Positions 6,178-24,543 of a stretch of DNA of 29,762 nucleotides are shown one piece after another. The notes beneath the pieces were generated by a model. It did no database searches. It saw only the letters and a program-made list of their open reading frames with translations, and was not told where the DNA came from. The stretch's first letter is position 1. Each line of letters opens with the position of its first letter. The position numbers and the translations under genes were made by a program. The DNA lies in the IMG/VR virus record IMGVR_UViG_3300027996_000122, positions 1 to 29,762 of that record. One strand, written 5' to 3'. Source of the DNA: a virus.

Positions 6178-6774
6178 TTAGTCGGTCAATATATTTATGT
6201 GCACTGCTACCAATTGAGAATACGCGATTGCGTGAGATTTGCGAAATGTGTATCCTTTATCGGTTTTCTGCCAAACGGTTTCTCCGATTGTTTTCCACGA
6301 TTCACCGATCAAATGGCGCTTGCCCGGACGTATTACCGATAGGAACATAGCCATTCTCGGGATAGTATCAGGTTTCATCCGAGTTAGCAAGCCGAATTGC
6401 GAATTTATATGAACGACCTGTTTACAGAACTCTCGATCTTCCCAGCATCGTTCCCAATCTGGCTCTCGATCCATGAGTTCCTGCAAATGGTTCTGATCTT
6501 TGACCAATTCATACACCGACATGTTCAACAAGTCGATCTTCATGTATCCACGTTGTTCAGCTTCCTTGTAATCGATACTGGCAACACCGCGCAATGCATC
6601 TGATGGGATATCAGTAAAGAACACACCGGAATTATGGCGCTTCAATACTCCATCCTTGATCATACCAGCGGGGGTATGCTTGAACAGTTCCAGAACCTTT
6701 GTTCTGTCGGGGAGATCAATATCAATATCTCCAGTGAATATTATTTTTTCTTGTAAGTTTTTCCTTTGTTCCAC
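6178..6774 (-). CDS. Miniature DnaE-like (bacterial Pol III alpha-related) phage protein
   Basis: 198 aa, far shorter than DnaE (over 1000 aa), but it shows DnaE core signatures in the right order. GDIDIDLPDRTKVLEL (15-30) resembles the catalytic PDIDxDF...RxEV segment; RHNSGVFFTDIP then EAEQRGYMKIDLLNMSVYEL (46-90) resembles HAAGVVI...AGLxKxDFLGL; FRKSHAIAYSQL (177-188) resembles the FNKSHxAAYA motif. The link is my reading of motifs, not an alignment. The start appears to be GTG at 6774 with AAGGA upstream, and it lies inside the end of the homing endonuclease gene (34-nt overlap), so the original start may have been replaced when that gene inserted. Whether it is a polymerase-related enzyme or a binding module is unknown. 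Confidence 0.65.
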   Translation of the reverse strand: MEQRKNLQEKIIFTGDIDIDLPDRTKVLELFKHTPAGMIKDGVLKRHNSGVFFTDIPSDALRGVASIDYKEAEQRGYMKIDLLNMSVYELVKDQNHLQELMDREPDWERCWEDREFCKQVVHINSQFGLLTRMKPDTIPRMAMFLSVIRPGKRHLIGESWKTIGETVWQKTDKGYTFRKSHAIAYSQLVAVHINILTD

Positions 6775-7430
6775 GGTATTTGTCCTTTTTTGGATGCACT
6801 TAATGATTGTTTATGTTCCGTGGACAATGGTCCAGTTTTCAATCCTTTATTCCACGGTATTCTGCCATTGGGATTATGTTGTTTGATTCCATTAGAAATC
6901 CGTTGCTTGTCTTCCTTTGATCGTTCCTTACCTTCGTTCCATACCTTTCGTCCCGAAGGATTTGCGCGTTTGATACCATCTCGCATGGCTTGTTTTTCTT
7001 CTTCGGTGCGTTTCTTCCCTTTGTTCCAAGGAATTTTACCTTTGTTGGCTATTGAAACTGCTTGTTTTTCGCTGTCAGTTCTATGCCTACCGTACATTCC
7101 ATTATTTTTGCCAACATTCTTTGGCGGTTTATTACCCAAGCACACGTTAGTTAATACACCATCATGATCCAGTTGTGTTCTGCCATAATGTTGTATCAAT
7201 TCGTCTTCCAATAGATAAGCTTCGTTCTCGTCATGAATGTTTTCGTATGCGAATTCTACTATCGGTTCCATACCGGCGTTACGAATTGATTGTATCTTTT
7301 GATATTTGGCAATATTCTCGGTCGTTTTACTCGTTTCTCTGAGATGATCCCATGCCCTATTATTGGAACCCTTGCCAACATAAAACGGAACATGATCCCG
7401 TGGATCGATATACACATAAACATAATACAC
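6741..7430 (-). CDS. GIY-YIG homing endonuclease with tandem NUMOD3 repeats
   Basis: 229 aa. The N-terminus is a clear GIY-YIG domain: YYVYVYIDP then PFYVGKGSNNRAWDH (1-30), and a conserved acidic EAYLLEDELIQHYGR segment near residue 90. Residues 118-229 contain at least four NUMOD3-like repeats built on G(K/R)xPWNKGK followed by a basic helix (for example KGKIPWNKGKKRTEEEKQ and NGRIPWNKGLKTGPLS). The start has AAGGAG with good spacing. Its last 34 nt are shared with the GTG start region of the DnaE-like gene, which is unusual and suggests insertion at the 5' edge of that gene. Confidence 0.9.
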   Translation of the reverse strand: MYYVYVYIDPRDHVPFYVGKGSNNRAWDHLRETSKTTENIAKYQKIQSIRNAGMEPIVEFAYENIHDENEAYLLEDELIQHYGRTQLDHDGVLTNVCLGNKPPKNVGKNNGMYGRHRTDSEKQAVSIANKGKIPWNKGKKRTEEEKQAMRDGIKRANPSGRKVWNEGKERSKEDKQRISNGIKQHNPNGRIPWNKGLKTGPLSTEHKQSLSASKKGQIPWNKGKTYKKK

Positions 7431-10981: not shown

Positions 10982-11011
10982 ATTATATTATAGTAGTATT
11001 TAACTTGTCAA
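10982..11011 (-). promoter_or_regulatory. Sigma70-like promoter for the 10801-10968 operon
   Basis: TTGACA (11011-11006) and TATAAT (10987-10982) on the minus strand, separated by 18 bp, with the ATG at 10968 and TGGAG between. It stands just downstream of the stop of the 11025 gene and would drive the membrane-peptide and tandem-family genes. Confidence 0.7.
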
Positions 11012-13565: not shown

Positions 13566-13595
13566 ATTATATCGAAAACAGGGGATGGATGTCAA
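13566..13595 (-). promoter_or_regulatory. Strong sigma70-like promoter of uvsW
   Basis: TTGACA (13595-13590) and TATAAT (13571-13566), both perfect consensus, with an 18-bp spacer. Only 5 nt (GGTGG) separate the -10 box from the ATG, so the transcript should start at or within the start codon. The -35 lies beside the truncated last repeat of the left array. Confidence 0.8.
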
Positions 13596-13873: not shown

Positions 13874-13902
13874 ATAATACTGTATTATGCATCAGATGTC
13901 AA
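13874..13902 (-). promoter_or_regulatory. Promoter of the left RNA/array cassette, with palindrome
   Basis: TTGACA (13902-13897), 17-bp spacer, TATTAT (13879-13874). A 17-bp palindrome (CATAATAC, one base, GTATTATG; 13873-13889) covers the -10 and half the spacer, suggesting a repressor site. The TGA stop of the nuclease gene (13901-13899) lies inside the -35 TTGACA. Confidence 0.72.
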
Positions 13903-15413
13903 CCTACTTTCAATATATTTTTTGCTGCATTCACGTCTCTGTCATCTTCGTGTCCACATGCGGCGCACTGGTAAGTACGAACACTCATGTCAATTTTGTC
14001 TGCTCCTGATTTACGATTACCACACTTAGAACAGGTTTGTGATGGTGCATGAAGAACCGTGTCAACCTTGACTAATTCGCCGCCGCGTTCGATCATCTTA
14101 TACGTTAGCATATCAAAGAACGTAGATGGGGATGTTTCTAATATAGCACGATTCAATCCCGACTTACTTCTTGAGCCAGCCGTTGGATTGTCCACTGTTC
14201 CGGATATGTTTTTCGTAAGATTACCGAAGGCGATATCCTCAGTTATGCATTTACTAAATGTTCTCGCCAATCGCGTGGTTTCTTCGTGGTTGAAGTTTGT
14301 TTTAATTTGTCTTAGTTTTAGGTGCAATACTTGCAATGCCTTTACTGTTTTAGCACGGCGAGATGACCCCTTTTGCTGTTTGGCCAACTTACGCTGTAGT
14401 TCTTTAATACGTTGGGTGTGTTTTTTCATATGACGCTGTGTTGTCACGTGATCCACCAACCCAATATTTCCTGAACTATCATATGTCGTGAGGAACTGCT
14501 TGACGCCCCAATCGATACCCACTTCGCCGGATGGAGTTGTATCCTCTTCCACCATCAATGATGTTTTGTATGCAATGGACAGATACCACTTACCTGCATC
14601 GTTGATAATTGTTGCATTAGTGATGACGCCGTTGCCGCTTTCAATTTCTTCCAGTACAGTGGTTTTTCGAGAGGGACGATTCAATGATGTAATTTTATTC
14701 AATCTTCCACGACATTTGATCCGTTGTTGTTGTTTACTGGTATGAACGCCTTGTATATACAGATACCATACATCACTAGAAACAGAGACACCATTCTTCA
14801 TTTTTGTCTCACCCTCTAGTGTTTGCTTATCCAATCCACTATGAGTTAGAGACCATCCTGATGCATTTCGGAAGGACAACGAGGTATATCGATGTTTTCC
14901 TTGAAATTTTGGATAGCCCACTACCCCCGGACGTTTGAAAAAATTCCGAAATGCACAGTCAAGTGTATTAAGGGTTCCATGATTCATGCTGGATGGATAT
15001 TTTAGATATACTGAGTTTGCATCAGCGTTGATGGCACTCACGCTATTTGTCTGTCCCATATATGATGCTGCGTTGGAATATTTCTTCTTCGTGGCCAGTA
15101 GTCCGTCAATAGAGAGATGACTGAATATTCCGACAGCAGTATTGGGAGTACGCGGTTCGCCCGAACGTAAGTATGATTGGTAAGATTTATTCTCCGAGGT
15201 CTTTTTCGATGCGCGGCGGGTTGCAATTTCAAGATTCAGTGGCTTGATATGTTTTTGATAAATGTCGTCGCGTTCTTGGAGGGCCGCATTATACAACATC
15301 CGTTGATGATACAAAGCATCATTCAATGCGATAACATCTGTCTTTGTCGGATACATTTGGAATTTAATTCGTCTGACCGCATGATCGCGGGTTTCTTGAT
15401 CTCTAAGTGACAT
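13899..15413 (-). CDS. TnpB/Cas12-like RNA-guided RuvC nuclease
   Basis: 504 aa. TnpB proteins are RNA-guided DNA nucleases of IS200/IS605-type elements and the ancestors of Cas12. Seen here: an N-terminal helical/OB region with KRPGVVGYPKFQGKHRYTSL (160-179), RuvC-I GIDWGVKQF (D301), a coiled bridge-like helix (MKKHTQRIKELQRKLAKQQK), RuvC-II TEDIAFGNL (E392), zinc ribbon CSKC (461-464) and CAAC (483-486), and RuvC-III DRDVNAAKNI (D493). All catalytic residues are present. It is longer than typical TnpB (about 400 aa) and in the range of small type V-U effectors. No tnpA is nearby. It is flanked by two promoter/anti-repeat/array cassettes in the same orientation and probably uses RNAs from them. 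No clear ribosome site; read-through from the right cassette may express it. Confidence 0.88.
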   Translation of the reverse strand: MSLRDQETRDHAVRRIKFQMYPTKTDVIALNDALYHQRMLYNAALQERDDIYQKHIKPLNLEIATRRASKKTSENKSYQSYLRSGEPRTPNTAVGIFSHLSIDGLLATKKKYSNAASYMGQTNSVSAINADANSVYLKYPSSMNHGTLNTLDCAFRNFFKRPGVVGYPKFQGKHRYTSLSFRNASGWSLTHSGLDKQTLEGETKMKNGVSVSSDVWYLYIQGVHTSKQQQRIKCRGRLNKITSLNRPSRKTTVLEEIESGNGVITNATIINDAGKWYLSIAYKTSLMVEEDTTPSGEVGIDWGVKQFLTTYDSSGNIGLVDHVTTQRHMKKHTQRIKELQRKLAKQQKGSSRRAKTVKALQVLHLKLRQIKTNFNHEETTRLARTFSKCITEDIAFGNLTKNISGTVDNPTAGSRSKSGLNRAILETSPSTFFDMLTYKMIERGGELVKVDTVLHAPSQTCSKCGNRKSGADKIDMSVRTYQCAACGHEDDRDVNAAKNILKVG

Positions 15414-17380: not shown

Positions 17381-18445
17381 CTAGGACAGTACCCGCTTCA
17401 TGCAAGTACCACGTGCTACCCGCTTCCAGTAATCAGTGTTCGGGTTGCGGCGATGAATTTTCTTCAAGTCAGCCATCTTCAAAGCCATCCGAAGGCTCAT
17501 TTCACGAAGGTTGTCTTTATTGTCCATCATGAAATTAAGGATTTCGGCTTCATCTTCGGCTTCCATTTTGTAGCCCTGAAACAGTTTGCCAGTTTTGGCG
17601 ATCTGCTTGATCCGCAGGATTTTGTCCCGCATGGTGTCCAAAGTCAGATCAATAAAGTGGCAACGTGACATCAAGGCGTCCAAGTGAGATTTCAAGTTTT
17701 TGCTAGTAGTGTTTGTGAAGTTCAAGTTCGTTACGAAGATCACAGAACCCTTGTACTCAAAGCTGTTCGGAATGCCTTCTTTTTTCAGCATGTTGCTATC
17801 GGCGTTCCAGTGAATTACCCGTTTCTTACCGGAGTCCAATGCAGCTTTCAGAATGTTCAGAGCCAGATCATCCTTGAAAACATCATCGCAATCATCGAAG
17901 ACCAGAACATCACGTGCATCGCTGTAAGCGAAGAGTTTTGCGTACAATCCCAATGGGCGCATGGCACCCTTGACAACTTCGTATCGTGCAGGACGAGTAC
18001 TGATCTGATCAAACAATGACCATTTCTCAAGTTCGGTTTCGATACCGTAAGACTTACCAACACCCGGTGGTCCGGTAACAATCATTGCACGAATGTCGCC
18101 GCCAATGGTGGCTTTGGTCATTTCATCCATGATTTCGAAACGCTCGGCAATTTCTTCGATACGCTTTTCATCATCGGCTTCGGTTGGCTCACCTTTTTTG
18201 GGAGCAGTTCCTTTACCCATCATGTTAAGCTGCTCGTTGTAATCATCGACGGTGACGGAGAAATCCATATCAGATGGCTCACATTTGATACGTGCTTTAT
18301 TTGATGTATTAAGCATTTCACGACCGTCCACCGTGATTGCTCCCCCGGATGAAAAGTTCACCCAATCCTTGATGACCGGAAAGATTGTTCCGTTCACTGG
18401 CTGGTTGCGCCATTTGCCGTAGTTGATTTTTACGTATGCAGTCAT
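17381..18445 (-). CDS. AAA-family ATPase
   Basis: 354 aa from the ATG at 18445; the longer open frame to 18493 would include promoter sequence. Walker A is GPPGVGKS (125-132) and Walker B-like VLVFDDCDDVF follows about 60 residues later; sensor-1-like IFVTNLNFTN comes next. The N-terminal 100 residues are non-conserved with a Ser/Thr-rich stretch. A probable oligomeric AAA+ chaperone or remodeler of unknown substrate, of a type seen in T4-like phages next to VWA-type partners. It has its own sigma70 promoter and a leader shared with the 25362 gene. Confidence 0.85.
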   Translation of the reverse strand: MTAYVKINYGKWRNQPVNGTIFPVIKDWVNFSSGGAITVDGREMLNTSNKARIKCEPSDMDFSVTVDDYNEQLNMMGKGTAPKKGEPTEADDEKRIEEIAERFEIMDEMTKATIGGDIRAMIVTGPPGVGKSYGIETELEKWSLFDQISTRPARYEVVKGAMRPLGLYAKLFAYSDARDVLVFDDCDDVFKDDLALNILKAALDSGKKRVIHWNADSNMLKKEGIPNSFEYKGSVIFVTNLNFTNTTSKNLKSHLDALMSRCHFIDLTLDTMRDKILRIKQIAKTGKLFQGYKMEAEDEAEILNFMMDNKDNLREMSLRMALKMADLKKIHRRNPNTDYWKRVARGTCMKRVLS

Positions 18446-18481
18446 AGATCGCTCCTGTTGTTTGTTTCTTTCTACAACTGG

Positions 18482-18509
18482 ATAGTACCACACCTACGTT
18501 CTGTGTCAA
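18482..18509 (-). promoter_or_regulatory. Sigma70-like extended -10 promoter of the AAA ATPase gene
   Basis: TTGACA (18509-18504), 16-bp spacer, extended -10 TGGTACTAT (core 18487-18482). The leader contains GTAGAAAGAAACAA and AGGAGCGA, nearly the same as the leader of the 25072-25362 gene, which points to recent duplication of the promoter/leader unit or selection on it. Confidence 0.78.
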
Positions 18510-18518
18510 GTCATTCAT

Positions 18519-19256
18519 TCATATAATTATTTCTGCATTCAAGTTAAACAGTGGGTTTTTGTCACCCGGATCATATCCACGAGGGTTGGTCAGAACCCGT
18601 GTACCCTCGATCATGTAGTCATTCGTGTGATGTACATGTCCGTGGAACCATAGCGCAGGGGCCATGTCGATTACCTCATAATCCATGTTACTGTAGTAAG
18701 CGACATTCAATCCATCAGTTTTGAATTGCTCAGAGATCGACTGAAAGCTTGGCGCATGATGAGTCACAACAACATCGCCGGGTTTCACTGTTTCGCGCAG
18801 AAATATACGGGATACCGAATGTTCGGTCGCAATAGTTTGTGCCTTCAATCGTTTCGTATAATTGTGAGATCGGATTCTGCGATAATCATTCAATTGATCT
18901 GGCACGTTCATCATTGCCAATGGATTGCCTTTGTCAAAATCAGTCCATAGGGTACATCCATGAAACATGGTGCCCTTTATGTCAACCGACTCATTCTGCA
19001 AGACATGAACATTGCGCTCGGCGTTGTTCTTCAATTTCTCCAACGTAGCCGTGAGATCACCGCCATAAAATTCGTGATTGCCGCAGACCATTACCACGTC
19101 ATCGAAATTATACGCAGCTTCATTCACCCAAGCCATTCGACCTTTGGTGTATATGTCGCCAGCCAATACGAGAACGTCAGCGGGTTCAGGCATAGCCATG
19201 GTACCGTCTGAGAATTCAAGATGGAGATCGCTTTGATATCTGATTGTTAAACTCAT
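18519..19256 (-). CDS. Calcineurin-like metallophosphoesterase
   Basis: 245 aa. Metal-binding motifs of the calcineurin-like fold are complete: SDLHLEF (D10, H12), LAGDIYTKG (G33-D34), CGNHEFYGGD (59-67), VVVTHHAPS and FHGHVHHTND. Likely a cytosolic di-metal phosphodiesterase or phosphatase acting on nucleotides or phosphoproteins; the substrate is not visible. It lies after spoVR in the transcription direction but has its own promoter, whose -10 ends 8 nt before the ATG, so its message should have little or no leader and it has no ribosome site. Confidence 0.87.
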   Translation of the reverse strand: MSLTIRYQSDLHLEFSDGTMAMPEPADVLVLAGDIYTKGRMAWVNEAAYNFDDVVMVCGNHEFYGGDLTATLEKLKNNAERNVHVLQNESVDIKGTMFHGCTLWTDFDKGNPLAMMNVPDQLNDYRRIRSHNYTKRLKAQTIATEHSVSRIFLRETVKPGDVVVTHHAPSFQSISEQFKTDGLNVAYYSNMDYEVIDMAPALWFHGHVHHTNDYMIEGTRVLTNPRGYDPGDKNPLFNLNAEIII

Positions 19257-19264
19257 AATAATCC

Positions 19265-19292
19265 ATTATACACGAATCGAAATGAATGTCAA
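19265..19292 (-). promoter_or_regulatory. Strong sigma70-like promoter of the metallophosphoesterase gene
   Basis: TTGACA (19292-19287), 16-bp spacer, TATAAT (19270-19265). 8 nt separate the -10 from the ATG at 19256, so the start point should fall within about two bases of the start codon. Confidence 0.78.
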
Positions 19293-19293
19293 C

Positions 19294-20817
19294 TTATTCT
19301 ATTTTGGTGGTTGCGACAGAACTTGATTTGGTGCGATCAAGCATGAACTCTTCGTCATCAAATACGGACCAGCTTTCCAACACCACCTGATATCCCCACA
19401 AAGTTTTAACATGTGCAAGAACTTTAGGAGATTGCTTGTCTAATGCTTTACTGTTGATGCTGGTGTGTCGTAGTGTCAATTTACGATCACCTTTCAAGTC
19501 AGCATCCCAAATCTGGATATCTGGCATCATGTTCCCTACTTCGTAGTTTGCCGCCAGTGTATTTCTGATGTCTTGGAATCCACGCTTATTATGAATGGCC
19601 GTAACTTCATATTCTTTGTCTTCTGCAGAAGTATGCAGTGCGAACATGTGAAACTTACGCATCAATGTAGGTGATAGGAACTGTTTGATGAATGACTCAT
19701 CGCGATAATTCTTTACCGCATCGAGACACACTTGTACCCAATCTTCTTGTCCTGCGTAGTCCGGAAACCACTCACGATCTTCATCTGTTGGGTGTTCGCA
19801 TATCCGGCGAATGTCAGTGAACATTTCAAATCCGAGTTTATATGGATTGAAGCCACTGTAGTTCTTATCGTTGTAGTCTGGCTGATATAATACGTTAGAA
19901 TGCATGTGTGCGAATTCCAACATGGAGCCTTCGGTAATTTGGCCCTTGTCGTACATTCTGCTCATGATGTAATGGTGACAGAACGATGCCCAGCCTTCAT
20001 TCATGACTTTTGTTTGATATTGTGGGTAGAAATATTGACTGATCTTTCTGGTGATGCGGACGATCTCGCGTTGCCAATCGGTAAGGATCGGTGAATTTTT
20101 CTCGATGAAATACAGCAGATTTTCTTCTGGTTCTTTAGGAAAACGGTCGTCTGCTGTATCTTTCACGTCCTCGGTTTTTGGGACGGTACGCCACAAATCA
20201 TTTACTTGTGACTGAAGATAATCCTGACGTTCTTTGCGCTTTTCGAGTTCTTTGACCATACTGAGTTTGCTTGGTCGTTTGTATTTGTTTATACCATGCT
20301 TGGTCAATGCGTGACAAGCGTCGAGCACTTTTTCGACTACCTCGACTCCATGTTTCTCTTCACATTCTTCAATGAAGCCTTTTGCATACACCAGATAGTC
20401 AACGATGTTTTCAGCATCAGTCCATTCTCTGAACAAGTAGTTATTCTTGAAGAAACTGTTGTGCCCAAATGCTGCATGAGCAATAACCAATGACTGTGTT
20501 GTCATGGTGTTCTCTTCCATCAGATAGTTGATACAAGGCGAACTGTTGATCACGATTTCATATGCGAGGCCACGTTGGCCACGTCTGTACTGATCTTCTT
20601 CGCGGGTGAACTGTTTACCGAAACTCCAGTGTTTGTAATACACGGGCAAGCCCACTGAACTATATGCGTCCAGCATTTGCTCTGAGGTGATTACCTCGAT
20701 TTGGTTCGGGTATGTATCTAGGCGTAGTTCTTCGGTAGCGATGACTTCACATGCGTCATATACTTTGTCTAACTTATCAAAGTCCCACTCTGCGTCTGTG
20801 AATAAGAAATCGCTCAT
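19294..20817 (-). CDS. SpoVR / YcgB family protein
   Basis: 507 aa, the same length as E. coli YcgB (510). Typical SpoVR blocks are visible: LPVYYKHWSFGKQF near residue 55, YEIVINSSPCINYLMEENT (90-108), AHAAFGHNSFFKNN, MNEGWASFCHHYIMSRMYD near 280 and a C-terminal TLRHTSINSKALD. SpoVR in Bacillus is needed for spore cortex formation; in enterobacteria YcgB is co-regulated with the YeaG kinase and YeaH, and its activity is not known. The start overlaps the HAD gene by 4 nt. With prkA and DUF444 upstream in the same direction, the trio is complete. Confidence 0.92.
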   Translation of the reverse strand: MSDFLFTDAEWDFDKLDKVYDACEVIATEELRLDTYPNQIEVITSEQMLDAYSSVGLPVYYKHWSFGKQFTREEDQYRRGQRGLAYEIVINSSPCINYLMEENTMTTQSLVIAHAAFGHNSFFKNNYLFREWTDAENIVDYLVYAKGFIEECEEKHGVEVVEKVLDACHALTKHGINKYKRPSKLSMVKELEKRKERQDYLQSQVNDLWRTVPKTEDVKDTADDRFPKEPEENLLYFIEKNSPILTDWQREIVRITRKISQYFYPQYQTKVMNEGWASFCHHYIMSRMYDKGQITEGSMLEFAHMHSNVLYQPDYNDKNYSGFNPYKLGFEMFTDIRRICEHPTDEDREWFPDYAGQEDWVQVCLDAVKNYRDESFIKQFLSPTLMRKFHMFALHTSAEDKEYEVTAIHNKRGFQDIRNTLAANYEVGNMMPDIQIWDADLKGDRKLTLRHTSINSKALDKQSPKVLAHVKTLWGYQVVLESWSVFDDEEFMLDRTKSSSVATTKIE

Positions 20818-21290
20818 AGTTTCAGCTTCTTAAGCTCTTTGATAGTCGATTGTAAAGATGTATGAAATATGCCAATACCACCTGCTGTTTCCCATTCTTT
20901 GATGTTTCTAGCGTTGTCGTCAATCAGTATATGATTGGGTGCCGCGAACGTATGCTTATCCCGTGCCCAGCCAGTGATGACCTTTACGTATTTGCCAAGA
21001 TGTCTGGCGCACCATTGGCGCTTCTGTGGCTCTGCCCAATTACCTTGAGGCAATCCTGTCAGAATGCTTGGCTTGTACTTCTTGATGTAATCCCACAGTT
21101 TCAAGTTATCCATCGTATCCAGATTTGCATAGAAGTCTTTGGTTCGGGCTATTTGCGGCCAGAACACTTTAGGTGGCTGCGCATTATAGTCCTTGCCAGT
21201 GATTTCCTTTGCTGCTTTTTCGAAGTCAGCAAGTACGCCATCTAGATCACAAAAGATAACGTAGTTTGTGTTGATTTCATTGATCTGCAT
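20814..21290 (-). CDS. HAD-like 5'-nucleotidase/phosphatase
   Basis: 158 aa from the ATG at 21290; the open frame to 21440 overlaps DUF444 and has no support. HAD motif I is CDLDGVLADF (D15, D17), motif II-like SILTGLPQG, a conserved Lys region RDKHTFA, and motif IV LIDDNARNIKEWE. The size and the C-terminal DD fit small pyrimidine-deoxynucleotidase (NT5C-like) enzymes and related phage HADs. It sits inside the DUF444-spoVR junction with overlaps of 14 nt and 4 nt, an arrangement I do not know in bacterial prkA operons, so it may be a phage addition for nucleotide turnover or for dephosphorylating a PrkA target. Confidence 0.83.
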   Translation of the reverse strand: MQINEINTNYVIFCDLDGVLADFEKAAKEITGKDYNAQPPKVFWPQIARTKDFYANLDTMDNLKLWDYIKKYKPSILTGLPQGNWAEPQKRQWCARHLGKYVKVITGWARDKHTFAAPNHILIDDNARNIKEWETAGGIGIFHTSLQSTIKELKKLKL

Positions 21291-22602
21291 TTTCTTCTTT
21301 CTTAAATATTTCCCTGAACACCGGCATGATATCGGATTTATCCTTGACCTTCTTCGATGACAAGTTGTCGTATTGATTTTCCAGAATGCTGTACAATGTC
21401 CACATTTCAGTGATACCACTGTCATATCCCCAAAGGGCATATCCGGCAGAATACTCTCTACTGTTATCTATCTCTACATAGAAGAAATAGTTCACTGTTG
21501 GGAGAAGTTTGTCTTCCATTACCCTTCGTGTTGCGCTCATGTCTTGGGTGAAGTTATCACCATCCGAACATTGTGCTACATAGGTATTCCATTCGCTCTG
21601 GTCGTATCGTTCCTCTATAATTTCGTTTGCTAGCTTCAGACCTGATGAAACAAGTGTTCCTCCAGATTCTTTGCCATTGAAAAACCCTTCTTCATCGACT
21701 TCTTTCGCATTCATGTGATGTCGAACAAAGGCAACATCTACATGTTCGTATTTGGTTTTCAAGAACAAGTATAACAACAAATAGAACCGTTTGGCAAGTT
21801 CTTTCTCTTTCTCGCCCATACTGGCACTGACATCCATCACGCAAACCATTGCTGCTTTAGTGATTGGTTTTGGTACCTTAACGTAATTGCGAAACCGCAA
21901 ATCAATCGGATCAATGAACGGTAATGCCTTCAGTTTGTTTTTCAGCATCAATAGTTCATCTTCTAACAATCGACACATCTCTAACTTATTGCCATCTCGA
22001 TAGCCGCAATCCATCTTTTCTAATGTTTCTTCGATCTCTTTAATTCGTCTCAGGTGTTTGTGTCTGCCCAATCCGATACGTCTGCCCAATGATGTTGTGA
22101 TAGATTTCACGATATCCAATTGACTTGGATTACCATCGGTCACGTATCCTGCTCGGGCATTGGTGAACGATTTCGTATCGGCGTTCTGTTTCTTTTCCAG
22201 TCTTGGGAGTTCTAAGTCTTCAAATACAATGTCCAGATATTCATCTCGGGAGATATGGAATTCGAAGTCATCTTCGCCTTCGCCATCGGGCGATCCTTTT
22301 GAACCACCACCTCCAGCACCGCCTTGAGGTTTCGGAATGGTATCACCTACTGTGTAATCGGTGTTGCCCGGTAGAACAAAATCCTGATCACCAGATTGTG
22401 AGTCATGCCCGAATGATGGTTCGTCAATATCTCCAACGGGAATACTTACGTCTTCGCCGCGCTCATCAGTAATCGATCTGTCTATAATGTTCTTTTTAAG
22501 ACGTTCTTGTATCTGTTTCTTTGCTCGTTTAAGAAATCGTTGACGATTACTTAGGGATTTCCCCTTCGGATTCAATCTACGATCAATTATATACTTGCCC
22601 AT
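21277..22602 (-). CDS. DUF444 (YeaH/YhbH family) protein
   Basis: 441 aa (E. coli YeaH is 427). The N-terminus shows the family start (IIDRRLNPKGKSLSNRQRFL), then a Gly-rich linker (PQGGAGGGGSKG near 95), then a VWA-like domain with MIDAS-type CVMDVSASMGEKEKE, and a late GGTLVSSGLKLANEII segment. The YeaH/YhbH proteins are encoded next to the PrkA/YeaG kinase in many bacteria; a direct role as its partner is inferred from that. It starts 3 nt after the prkA stop, so the two are coupled, and its end overlaps the HAD gene by 14 nt. Confidence 0.92.
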   Translation of the reverse strand: MGKYIIDRRLNPKGKSLSNRQRFLKRAKKQIQERLKKNIIDRSITDERGEDVSIPVGDIDEPSFGHDSQSGDQDFVLPGNTDYTVGDTIPKPQGGAGGGGSKGSPDGEGEDDFEFHISRDEYLDIVFEDLELPRLEKKQNADTKSFTNARAGYVTDGNPSQLDIVKSITTSLGRRIGLGRHKHLRRIKEIEETLEKMDCGYRDGNKLEMCRLLEDELLMLKNKLKALPFIDPIDLRFRNYVKVPKPITKAAMVCVMDVSASMGEKEKELAKRFYLLLYLFLKTKYEHVDVAFVRHHMNAKEVDEEGFFNGKESGGTLVSSGLKLANEIIEERYDQSEWNTYVAQCSDGDNFTQDMSATRRVMEDKLLPTVNYFFYVEIDNSREYSAGYALWGYDSGITEMWTLYSILENQYDNLSSKKVKDKSDIMPVFREIFKKEENADQ

Positions 22603-22605
22603 GAC

Positions 22606-24543
22606 TTAACTAGACTTCTGAACTCTTAGATACCACTCAACGAGACGCCTGACTTGACGCTCAGTATATCCTTTATCTTGCATACGCTTAACGAAGTCAT
22701 CGTGTTCAGCTTGTGCTTCGGAGGTGCCTTTTGCACCAAATGAGATGATTGGCAGCAAATCTTCGGTACTTGCGAACATTTTCTTTTCGATCACTTCACG
22801 GAGCTTTTCGTAACTTGTCCATCTTGGCCGTACGCCATCGTTGTTTGCGGCTGCACGGATCACAAAGTTCACTACTTCGTTACGGAAGTCTTTTGCGTTA
22901 CTGATACCGGCTGGTTTCTCGATCTTTTCCAACTCATGGTCAAGAATTTGGATATCGAACAAGTTACCCGTGTCGGGGTCTTTGAAATCGATGTCCTGAA
23001 TCCAGTGATCGGCATAATCGAGATAACGGTTGAACAAGTTCTGTCCATAATCGTCATATGATTCGAGGTACGCTTTCTGGATTTCGTTTCCGATAAATTC
23101 GGCATATCGAACCGATAGGCTCGTCTTGATGTGATTGAGGTATTCCTGCTCTTTGTCCTTGTGGAACTGTTCACGTTTGATGCTGTCTTCAAGAACATAC
23201 ATCAAGTGGACCGGATCAGCAGCAACTTCATCATTATCAAAGTTGAATGTTTTTGACAACACCTTGAAAGCGAAACGAGTACTGATGCCATTCATTCCTT
23301 CATCAACACCGCCGATGTCACGGTATTCCTGAACGGATTTCGCTTTTGGATCGGTGTCTTTGATGTTGTCGCCGTTATATACGCGCATTTTGGAATACGG
23401 AGAACTGTTCTCATGTTCTTTCAAACGTGTAAGAGTACTGAACTGTGCCAGCATACGTAAGGTCTCAGGTGCGCATTTTGCCTCACCTAAACCAGACGAT
23501 TCCAGCATCTTATCGTAAATGCTGATCTCTTCATCGAAGCGCAAGCAGTATGGAACCTTCACGACACAAATACGGTCGATAAATGCTTCATTGTTCTTGT
23601 TGTTCTTGAAGGATTGCCATTCAGCTTCGTTACTGTGGGCCAATACAACACCATTGAACGGAATGGCTGTGATGCCCTCGGTTCCGATGTAATTGCATTC
23701 CTGTGTGGCTGTAAGCAGAGGATGCAGTACTTTAATCGGTGCCTTGAACATTTCCACGAATTCCATGATGCCTTGGTTGGCACGACATAGTGCGCCACTG
23801 AATGCATAAGCATCCGGATCACTTTGTGAGAAGTGTTCGAGCATTCTGATATCGGTTTTTCCGACCAATGAACTGATGTCTTGGTTGTTATCGTCACCCG
23901 GCTCGGTTTTACATACACCAATTTGCTCTAGGCGGGATGGGTATATTTTAGCGATCTGGAACTTACTGATGTCACCATCGAATTCCTTCATGCGTTTCAC
24001 TGCCCATGGACTCATCAGGCCGGTAACGTAACGCTTGTCTATTTTGTAATCCTTTTGGATTTGCGTTGCGTACTTCTCTGGATCAAACACACCTAATGGG
24101 GATTCGAATACAGGGCTAATGTTGCCTTCGCCATCTGCTAAACAGTAAATTGGGTGATCTTCGATCAATGCCTTGATACGCTCGGCCAATGATGACTTAC
24201 CACCACCAACTGGACCCAAGAGGTACAAAATCTGTTTACGCTCTTCTAGGCCCTGTGCAGCATGCTTGAAGTATCCTACGATGCGTTCAATGGTGTCTTC
24301 CATACCATAGAAGTCTTTGAATGCTGGATATATTTTGAGGGTTCTGTTAAGGAATATACGGCTTAGTCGGGGGTCTTTGCTAGTGTCAACTAGTTCTGGT
24401 TCACCGATTGCTTTTACCATACGCTCTGCCGCACTGGCGTAGGTAAGTGGGTCTTTCTTGCATTGTTTTAGATAATCTTCGAAACTTAAATATTCAACCT
24501 GTGACTTTTTTTGATCTTCTTTGAACTTATCGAAAATGTTCAT
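22606..24543 (-). CDS. prkA: PrkA (YeaG family) AAA-type serine protein kinase
   Basis: 645 aa, matching E. coli YeaG (644). Residues 1-80 have the family N-terminus (FEDYLKQCKKDPLTYASAAERM), then Walker A GPVGGGKS (110-117), and the PrkA-typical blocks KRYVTGLMSPWAVKR, GALCRANQGIMEFVEMFKAP, ATQECNYIG and NGVVLAHSNEAEW. YeaG-type kinases act in stationary-phase and nitrogen-starvation responses and, in Bacillus, in sporulation. Phage carriage of the kinase with both of its bacterial neighbours suggests manipulation of the host stress state. A hairpin pairs with its GGGAG ribosome site, and a late-like box lies in the loop. Confidence 0.93.
   Translation of the reverse strand: MNIFDKFKEDQKKSQVEYLSFEDYLKQCKKDPLTYASAAERMVKAIGEPELVDTSKDPRLSRIFLNRTLKIYPAFKDFYGMEDTIERIVGYFKHAAQGLEERKQILYLLGPVGGGKSSLAERIKALIEDHPIYCLADGEGNISPVFESPLGVFDPEKYATQIQKDYKIDKRYVTGLMSPWAVKRMKEFDGDISKFQIAKIYPSRLEQIGVCKTEPGDDNNQDISSLVGKTDIRMLEHFSQSDPDAYAFSGALCRANQGIMEFVEMFKAPIKVLHPLLTATQECNYIGTEGITAIPFNGVVLAHSNEAEWQSFKNNKNNEAFIDRICVVKVPYCLRFDEEISIYDKMLESSGLGEAKCAPETLRMLAQFSTLTRLKEHENSSPYSKMRVYNGDNIKDTDPKAKSVQEYRDIGGVDEGMNGISTRFAFKVLSKTFNFDNDEVAADPVHLMYVLEDSIKREQFHKDKEQEYLNHIKTSLSVRYAEFIGNEIQKAYLESYDDYGQNLFNRYLDYADHWIQDIDFKDPDTGNLFDIQILDHELEKIEKPAGISNAKDFRNEVVNFVIRAAANNDGVRPRWTSYEKLREVIEKKMFASTEDLLPIISFGAKGTSEAQAEHDDFVKRMQDKGYTERQVRRLVEWYLRVQKSS

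Follow-up and report, generated by a model that had tools for sequence, protein, structure and literature searches.

A PrkA-DUF444-SpoVR gene set is inherited as a unit by jumbo phages and may encode an ATP-driven protein machine

The PrkA, DUF444 and SpoVR protein families are encoded together, as a three-gene cassette, on a linear virus record of IMG/VR (IMGVR_UViG_3300027996_000122; 29,762 bases), and the whole 29.8-kb stretch, hereafter the window, was analyzed here. The genes of this cassette are intact, they share one phylogeny, they are under purifying selection in related phages, and the full set is retained even in genomes where its members have been scattered. Such long joint inheritance suggests that the set has an important job during infection. 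The interpretation we favor, and consider somewhat probable, is that jumbo phages have inherited PrkA-DUF444-SpoVR over the long term as one unit, and that the three proteins form an ATP-driven remodelling or proteolytic machine. A more specific version, in which SpoVR would be an undescribed gluzincin-related metalloenzyme and the trio a new ATP-dependent protein-processing complex in the replication or assembly programme of giant phages, is put forward tentatively, as a possibility that we do not regard as the likeliest outcome. In bacteria, it is poorly understood what PrkA, YeaH and SpoVR do chemically, and the phage sets offer many natural variants of them.

The cassette spans positions 19294-24543 of the window, with all three genes full length and in the usual bacterial order:

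22606-24543, minus strand: PrkA (YeaG-like), 645 aa; Pfam AAA_PrkA 9.5e-173 and PrkA C-terminal domain 1.8e-70
21277-22602, minus strand: DUF444 (YeaH/YhbH), 441 aa; Pfam DUF444 2.3e-154, profile covered 1-418 of 418
19294-20817, minus strand: SpoVR (YcgB-like), 507 aa; Pfam SpoVR 9e-167 and SpoVR_C 1e-20

An initial annotation, made from the sequence of the window, had described a full-length trio in operon order on a phage, and the Pfam profiles, which run over the full length of the three minus-strand genes, bear this out. Both PrkA domains are complete (PF08298, positions 2-358 of 358; PF06798, 1-255 of 255), and the Walker A motif, GPVGGGKSS, is conserved together with K427 in a sequence comparison with bacterial proteins. 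The ATPase of the cassette is PrkA, and no match to the MoxR family was obtained in the Pfam search. In DUF444 (PF04285), the metal ion-dependent adhesion site (MIDAS) is intact, its residues D257, S259, S261, T316 and D347 being all invariant, and SpoVR is covered by PF04293 (1-406 of 407) plus PF24755 (SpoVR_C). When 53 phage and 34-36 bacterial sequences were compared, most phage PrkAs were found to lack a single residue that is invariant in bacteria; DUF444 and SpoVR showed no such loss.

The record is considered viral because of its phage gene content, namely a UvsW-like helicase, an RNA ligase, a T4-type phrog_1250 ATPase, a phage DNA polymerase fragment and a virion-structural match. 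No terminase or portal gene was detected in the window, a 30-kb fragment; a T4-type portal and a terminase are both present in its sister L071. The PrkA side and the SpoVR side of the cassette recur at 100% identity in contigs L002 and L082, both obtained from other samples, so that neither side is likely to be an assembly chimera.

PrkA is rare among annotated phage records (16 of 50,697), where its carriers are Thermus phages, four huge phages of 595-642 kb and Enterobacter phage LAU1. The LAU1 record opens with host-like yeaGH genes that are probably a prophage-boundary artefact. In IMG/VR, PrkA is common: a scan confirmed 132 stretches, and the loci from the PrkA and SpoVR scans, together with the annotated phage loci, were reduced to 66 non-redundant groups. 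Of these, 64 contain PrkA, 63 DUF444 and 55 SpoVR, with some contigs truncated. The cassette thus occurs at about 60 non-redundant phage loci, and its carriers are mostly T4-type jumbo or huge phages, in addition to the Thermus phages; that these records are phages is supported by a T4-type portal in 17 of 28 tested records, as compared to none of 14 control genomes. The order PrkA-DUF444-SpoVR is nearly constant across the viral loci and is the same as in bacteria. SpoVR was found in all 27 tested PrkA-bearing phage records, and both genes are retained in the huge phage LR756502, despite a separation of about 245 kb. That phages keep exactly these three genes, losing none upon scattering, indicates that the trio acts as one unit. 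Our literature search found no paper describing PrkA-DUF444-SpoVR as a phage cassette; the set is already known in pieces, and a study of marine oxygen-minimum zones reported spoVR to be more abundant than any other sporulation-related viral gene (PMC8940887).

To place the window copies, one tree was built per family, from about 50 phage rows and about 35 bacterial ones. In all three trees, the window belongs to one and the same virus-only clade, which comprises 32-33 rows, with support in the Shimodaira-Hasegawa-like approximate likelihood ratio test of 94 (PrkA), 95 (SpoVR) and 90 (DUF444), and in each it groups with the same four phages, L003, L004, L005 and L071. Because three separate trees place it in the same clade with the same companions, the three genes have moved as one unit and share one history. 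A quick tree of the concatenated proteins gave a support of 98 for the virus-only clade and of 99 for the small group around the window. Different bacterial donors for the three genes are ruled out by the single-gene and concatenated trees. Other parts of the trees hold a second virus-only clade, of 14 rows, and some long branches; acquisition by phages may therefore have happened repeatedly, and two or more phage lineages of the cassette may exist. The trees require several changes between virus and bacterium and do not support one common origin for every phage copy. Entry L083, which groups with beta/gammaproteobacteria in all three trees, is probably host DNA.

Regarding selection, the ratio of nonsynonymous to synonymous substitution rates ranges from 0.025 to 0.135 between related phages in which synonymous change is unsaturated; the synonymous sites of the window itself are saturated, and the ratios come from the related phages only. 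In those relatives, sequence comparison thus indicates strong purifying selection on the cassette. The initial annotation had argued for selection on the set, and the low ratios, together with the retention of invariant residues, agree with it; the combination of different donors and relaxed selection that it had considered as a contrary outcome was not seen.

We then focused our attention on what the three proteins might do together. PrkA, which matches the solved structure 9xip in a sequence search, would be the AAA+ motor of the putative protein-remodelling or proteolytic machine. The same search returned nothing meaningful for DUF444; its modelled C-terminal domain resembles von Willebrand factor type A (vWA) domains, with Z scores up to 18.8. 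DUF444 is therefore predicted to be a vWA-fold protein with an intact MIDAS, and it could work as a MIDAS-dependent adaptor that docks a substrate or partner. SpoVR, for which the search of solved structures gave nothing, would be the metal-dependent, gluzincin-like effector. Its structure model has a mean predicted local distance difference test score of 87, and a structural aligner, the second one used, placed gluzincins on top, with leading matches at Z 7-12.8 and the highest for 3o0y (Z 12.8). The latter is annotated only as a putative lipoprotein, and we infer that it is a gluzincin from the neighbouring rows of the result. M1 aminopeptidases and leukotriene A4 hydrolase were matched at Z 10-11, and the angiotensin-converting enzymes ACE and ACE2 at about 8. 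In an independent profile comparison, the zinc-ligand motif of M1 enzymes, LWLNEGF, aligned to the SpoVR segment KVMNEGWASF (E 0.0014, probability 17%), while two control comparisons gave E values of 0.29 and 0.89.

The conserved motifs of SpoVR are HAxxGH (H114 and H119) and NEGWA (E274), and both are met again in a different type of observation. In L069, L076, L100 and L198, the SpoVR reading frame contains in-frame insertions whose ends are intein-like. Three insertion sites are used, one within HAA/GH, one following EQMLDAY and one within NEG/A. Inteins prefer the conserved active sites of indispensable proteins, and the insertion sites therefore fit the HAxxGH and NEG motifs being the active site of SpoVR. 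In a limited literature search, no paper tying SpoVR to inteins was found, and the papers retrieved with metallopeptidase terms made no mention of SpoVR. Together, the gluzincin-like model and the intein-like sites point to H114, H119, E274 and H281 as key residues.

Several results weigh against this interpretation of SpoVR and of the machine. Foldseek gave no match for the SpoVR model at E values up to 0.001, and a Z score near 13 can reflect a common arrangement. The probability of the match with the M1 profile is low. The canonical HExxH zinc motif, with its catalytic glutamate, is absent from SpoVR; because the aligned helix carries HAxxGH in its place, SpoVR is not a canonical M1 member, and its peptidase activity is putative. 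The Pfam Intein_splicing profile reached only 3e-4 to 4e-4 in L100 and L076, under its cut-off. Lastly, the biochemistry of PrkA is conflicting in the literature, where it appears as a weak kinase, a limited protease or neither (PMC13001217, PMC6299236).

The closest counterpart of the phage cassette is the bacterial prkA-yhbH-spoVR operon, with the same three families in the same order and nearly all invariant residues kept in the phage copies; examples are the trio of Thermomicrobium roseum and yeaGH of E. coli, where ycgB lies elsewhere. Unlike the bacterial operon, copies of the window type are phage-resident, belong to virus-only clades, and have junctions broken by differing cargo genes. 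RsoM2USA (MG752970), an isolated lytic jumbo myovirus of Ralstonia, carries SpoVR (ORF28) and PrkA (ORF30; ORF, open reading frame) close together, with a metallophosphoesterase nearby; the two are given as separate genes in the original paper, which describes no set (PMC8504454), and DUF444 might, as a guess, be ORF29. In the Thermus phages phiYS40, TMA, phiLo and Lalka8, PrkA is about 27% identical to that of the window, and for phiYS40 and Lalka8 Pfam lists proteins of each of the three families. They differ in having the order vWA-SpoVR-PrkA and in being sited among head and terminase genes. The huge phages LR745206, LR756502, LR756504 and LR756511 (those of 595-642 kb) all carry the cassette families, but differ from the window in that the genes are partly separated, with LR756502 at the extreme. 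Finally, the MoxR set proposed for group 2.2 jumbo phages likewise combines an AAA+ motor, a vWA partner and a metallopeptidase-type domain (Iyer et al. 2021, PMC7824862), although the motor is MoxR instead of PrkA and the vWA and peptidase parts form a single fusion protein.

The surroundings of the cassette and the physiology of its bacterial counterpart bear on what such a set would be for. One possibility, raised in the initial annotation and drawn by analogy with bacterial yeaGH, which we take seriously while holding it to be less probable than not, is that the cassette acts as a stress-signalling kinase unit of the YeaGH/YcgB type, keeping the host in an energy-saving, stationary-like state that favors a slow jumbo-phage cycle. 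The phage proteins keep bacterial-invariant residues, K427 included, and in E. coli YeaG is a brake in nitrogen starvation that requires both its AAA+ and its kinase residues and acts jointly with YeaH (PMC4664914, PMC6299236). Moreover, in RsoM2USA, which has a latent period of 270 min, the neighbourhood of PrkA and SpoVR includes genes with the annotations general stress protein 16U and DUF475, and most cassettes lie away from structural genes. Nevertheless, PrkA of B. anthracis displayed negligible kinase or protease activity (PMC13001217), and in two phage lineages the cassette sits within the virion-assembly region. The latter contexts suggest instead a chaperone for virion assembly, remodelling or processing phage structural proteins as the published MoxR-vWA-metallopeptidase set would. 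In L071 and L005, both sisters of the window, the genes for the head-tail adaptor, head closure, sheath stabilizer and small terminase follow directly after the cassette, and in L071 large terminase, sheath, tube and portal genes come next as well; in the Thermus phages, the cassette is found between the portal/minor head genes and the large terminase gene TerL (Lalka8) or close to TerL (phiYS40). However, in most jumbo phages at least tens of kb separate it from the terminase and portal genes, and it is surrounded by genes for nucleotide metabolism and others (thymidylate synthase, dihydrofolate reductase, PhoH, MazG, ClpP-like, peptide deformylase and similar); moreover, ORF28 and ORF30 of RsoM2USA are not among the ten main virion bands assigned. 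We consider an assembly role rather improbable, more so than control of the host state. The contexts that speak for control of the host state and for virion assembly thus disagree. In four non-redundant groups (L003, L004, L010 and L019), a phage gene for an EF-G-like elongation factor lies close downstream of SpoVR.

Entries of a passenger type do exist, as the host-like start of LAU1 and the placement of L083 illustrate, but that the window cassette is a recent host capture, or bacterial DNA misbinned as viral, is very improbable: it belongs to a deep virus-only clade for all three genes, its relatives are under purifying selection, and the sister loci carry phage structural genes. The weight remaining beside host-state control and virion assembly goes to general protein handling in the infected cell. 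These purposes are compatible with the ATP-driven machine that we favor, which describes how the set would work and not what it works on. By a weaker argument, the phage copy would supply such a machine from the onset of infection, while bacteria make theirs mainly under stress, and it would remodel proteins of the infected cell.

Besides the cassette, three further features belong to the same locus, in which the transcription order on the minus strand is PrkA, DUF444, a gene of the haloacid dehalogenase (HAD) type, SpoVR and a metallophosphoesterase:

20814-21290, minus strand: NT5C-type HAD gene; Pfam NT5C 2.3e-6, phrog_2643 5'-3' deoxyribonucleotidase 2.3e-31
18519-19256, minus strand: calcineurin-like metallophosphoesterase; Pfam Metallophos 1.4e-9, phrog_1649
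19265-19292, minus strand: perfect TTGACA-16-TATAAT promoter-like site upstream of the metallophosphoesterase

The initial annotation had described a HAD phosphatase embedded between yeaH and spoVR, with coding overlaps at both junctions, and a metallophosphoesterase following the set. The arrangement is as described: the HAD gene, with an ATG and a plausible N-terminus at 21290, overlaps the end of DUF444 by 14 nt and the start of SpoVR by 4 nt (ATGA), and the metallophosphoesterase is present downstream. What stands of that reading is the complete, selected and co-inherited trio; both additional genes are probably mere neighbours, outside the functional unit. The HAD protein matches NT5C (28 bits versus the Pfam cut-off of 24.8) and has the DxDGV motif, in CDLDGVLADF, and its relatives are widespread among phages without PrkA. 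Of the phage loci examined, none but the window and L082, an identical copy, has it between DUF444 and SpoVR, so that this placement is confined to one lineage. A role as embedded regulator is ruled out by the likeness to NT5C and by the lack of recurrence at that position. Other phages have HNH endonuclease-like genes at the cassette junctions (L008, L014, L015 and L032, in L008 by sequence reading only), DNA-methyltransferase-like genes (L198, likewise read from the sequence only) or various small ORFs. The junctions are insertion spots for varying cargo, and the HAD gene is best seen as nucleotide-metabolism passenger cargo of the deoxyribonucleotidase type. Membership of the metallophosphoesterase in the operon is doubted because a perfect sigma-70-type site precedes the gene. 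Three such perfect consensus sites are found in the window, versus 0.03 expected, all on the minus strand and none upstream of prkA; the other two lie at 10982-11011 and, just before the helicase gene, at 13566-13595. All three are candidate early promoters, while the overall promoter scan of the window showed no excess compared to shuffles. The T4 late promoter TATAAATA occurs 0 times in the window, which therefore offers no argument for late expression from it.

A few observations concern the remainder of the window. The phrog_1250 ATPase (17381-18493), downstream of the cassette, has its closest relatives in the PA5oct/Paride group of Pseudomonas jumbo phages, for which the search of annotated phage records gave no PrkA match. 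A TnpB-type transposon protein is encoded between the RNA ligase and the UvsW-like helicase (13899-15413, minus strand). An ORF similar to GIY-YIG homing endonucleases lies next to a fragment similar to DNA polymerase III alpha (6178-7430, minus strand), an arrangement resembling a polymerase gene split by a mobile element. Lastly, adjacent ORFs at 249-2500 share the N-terminus MKIxELL.

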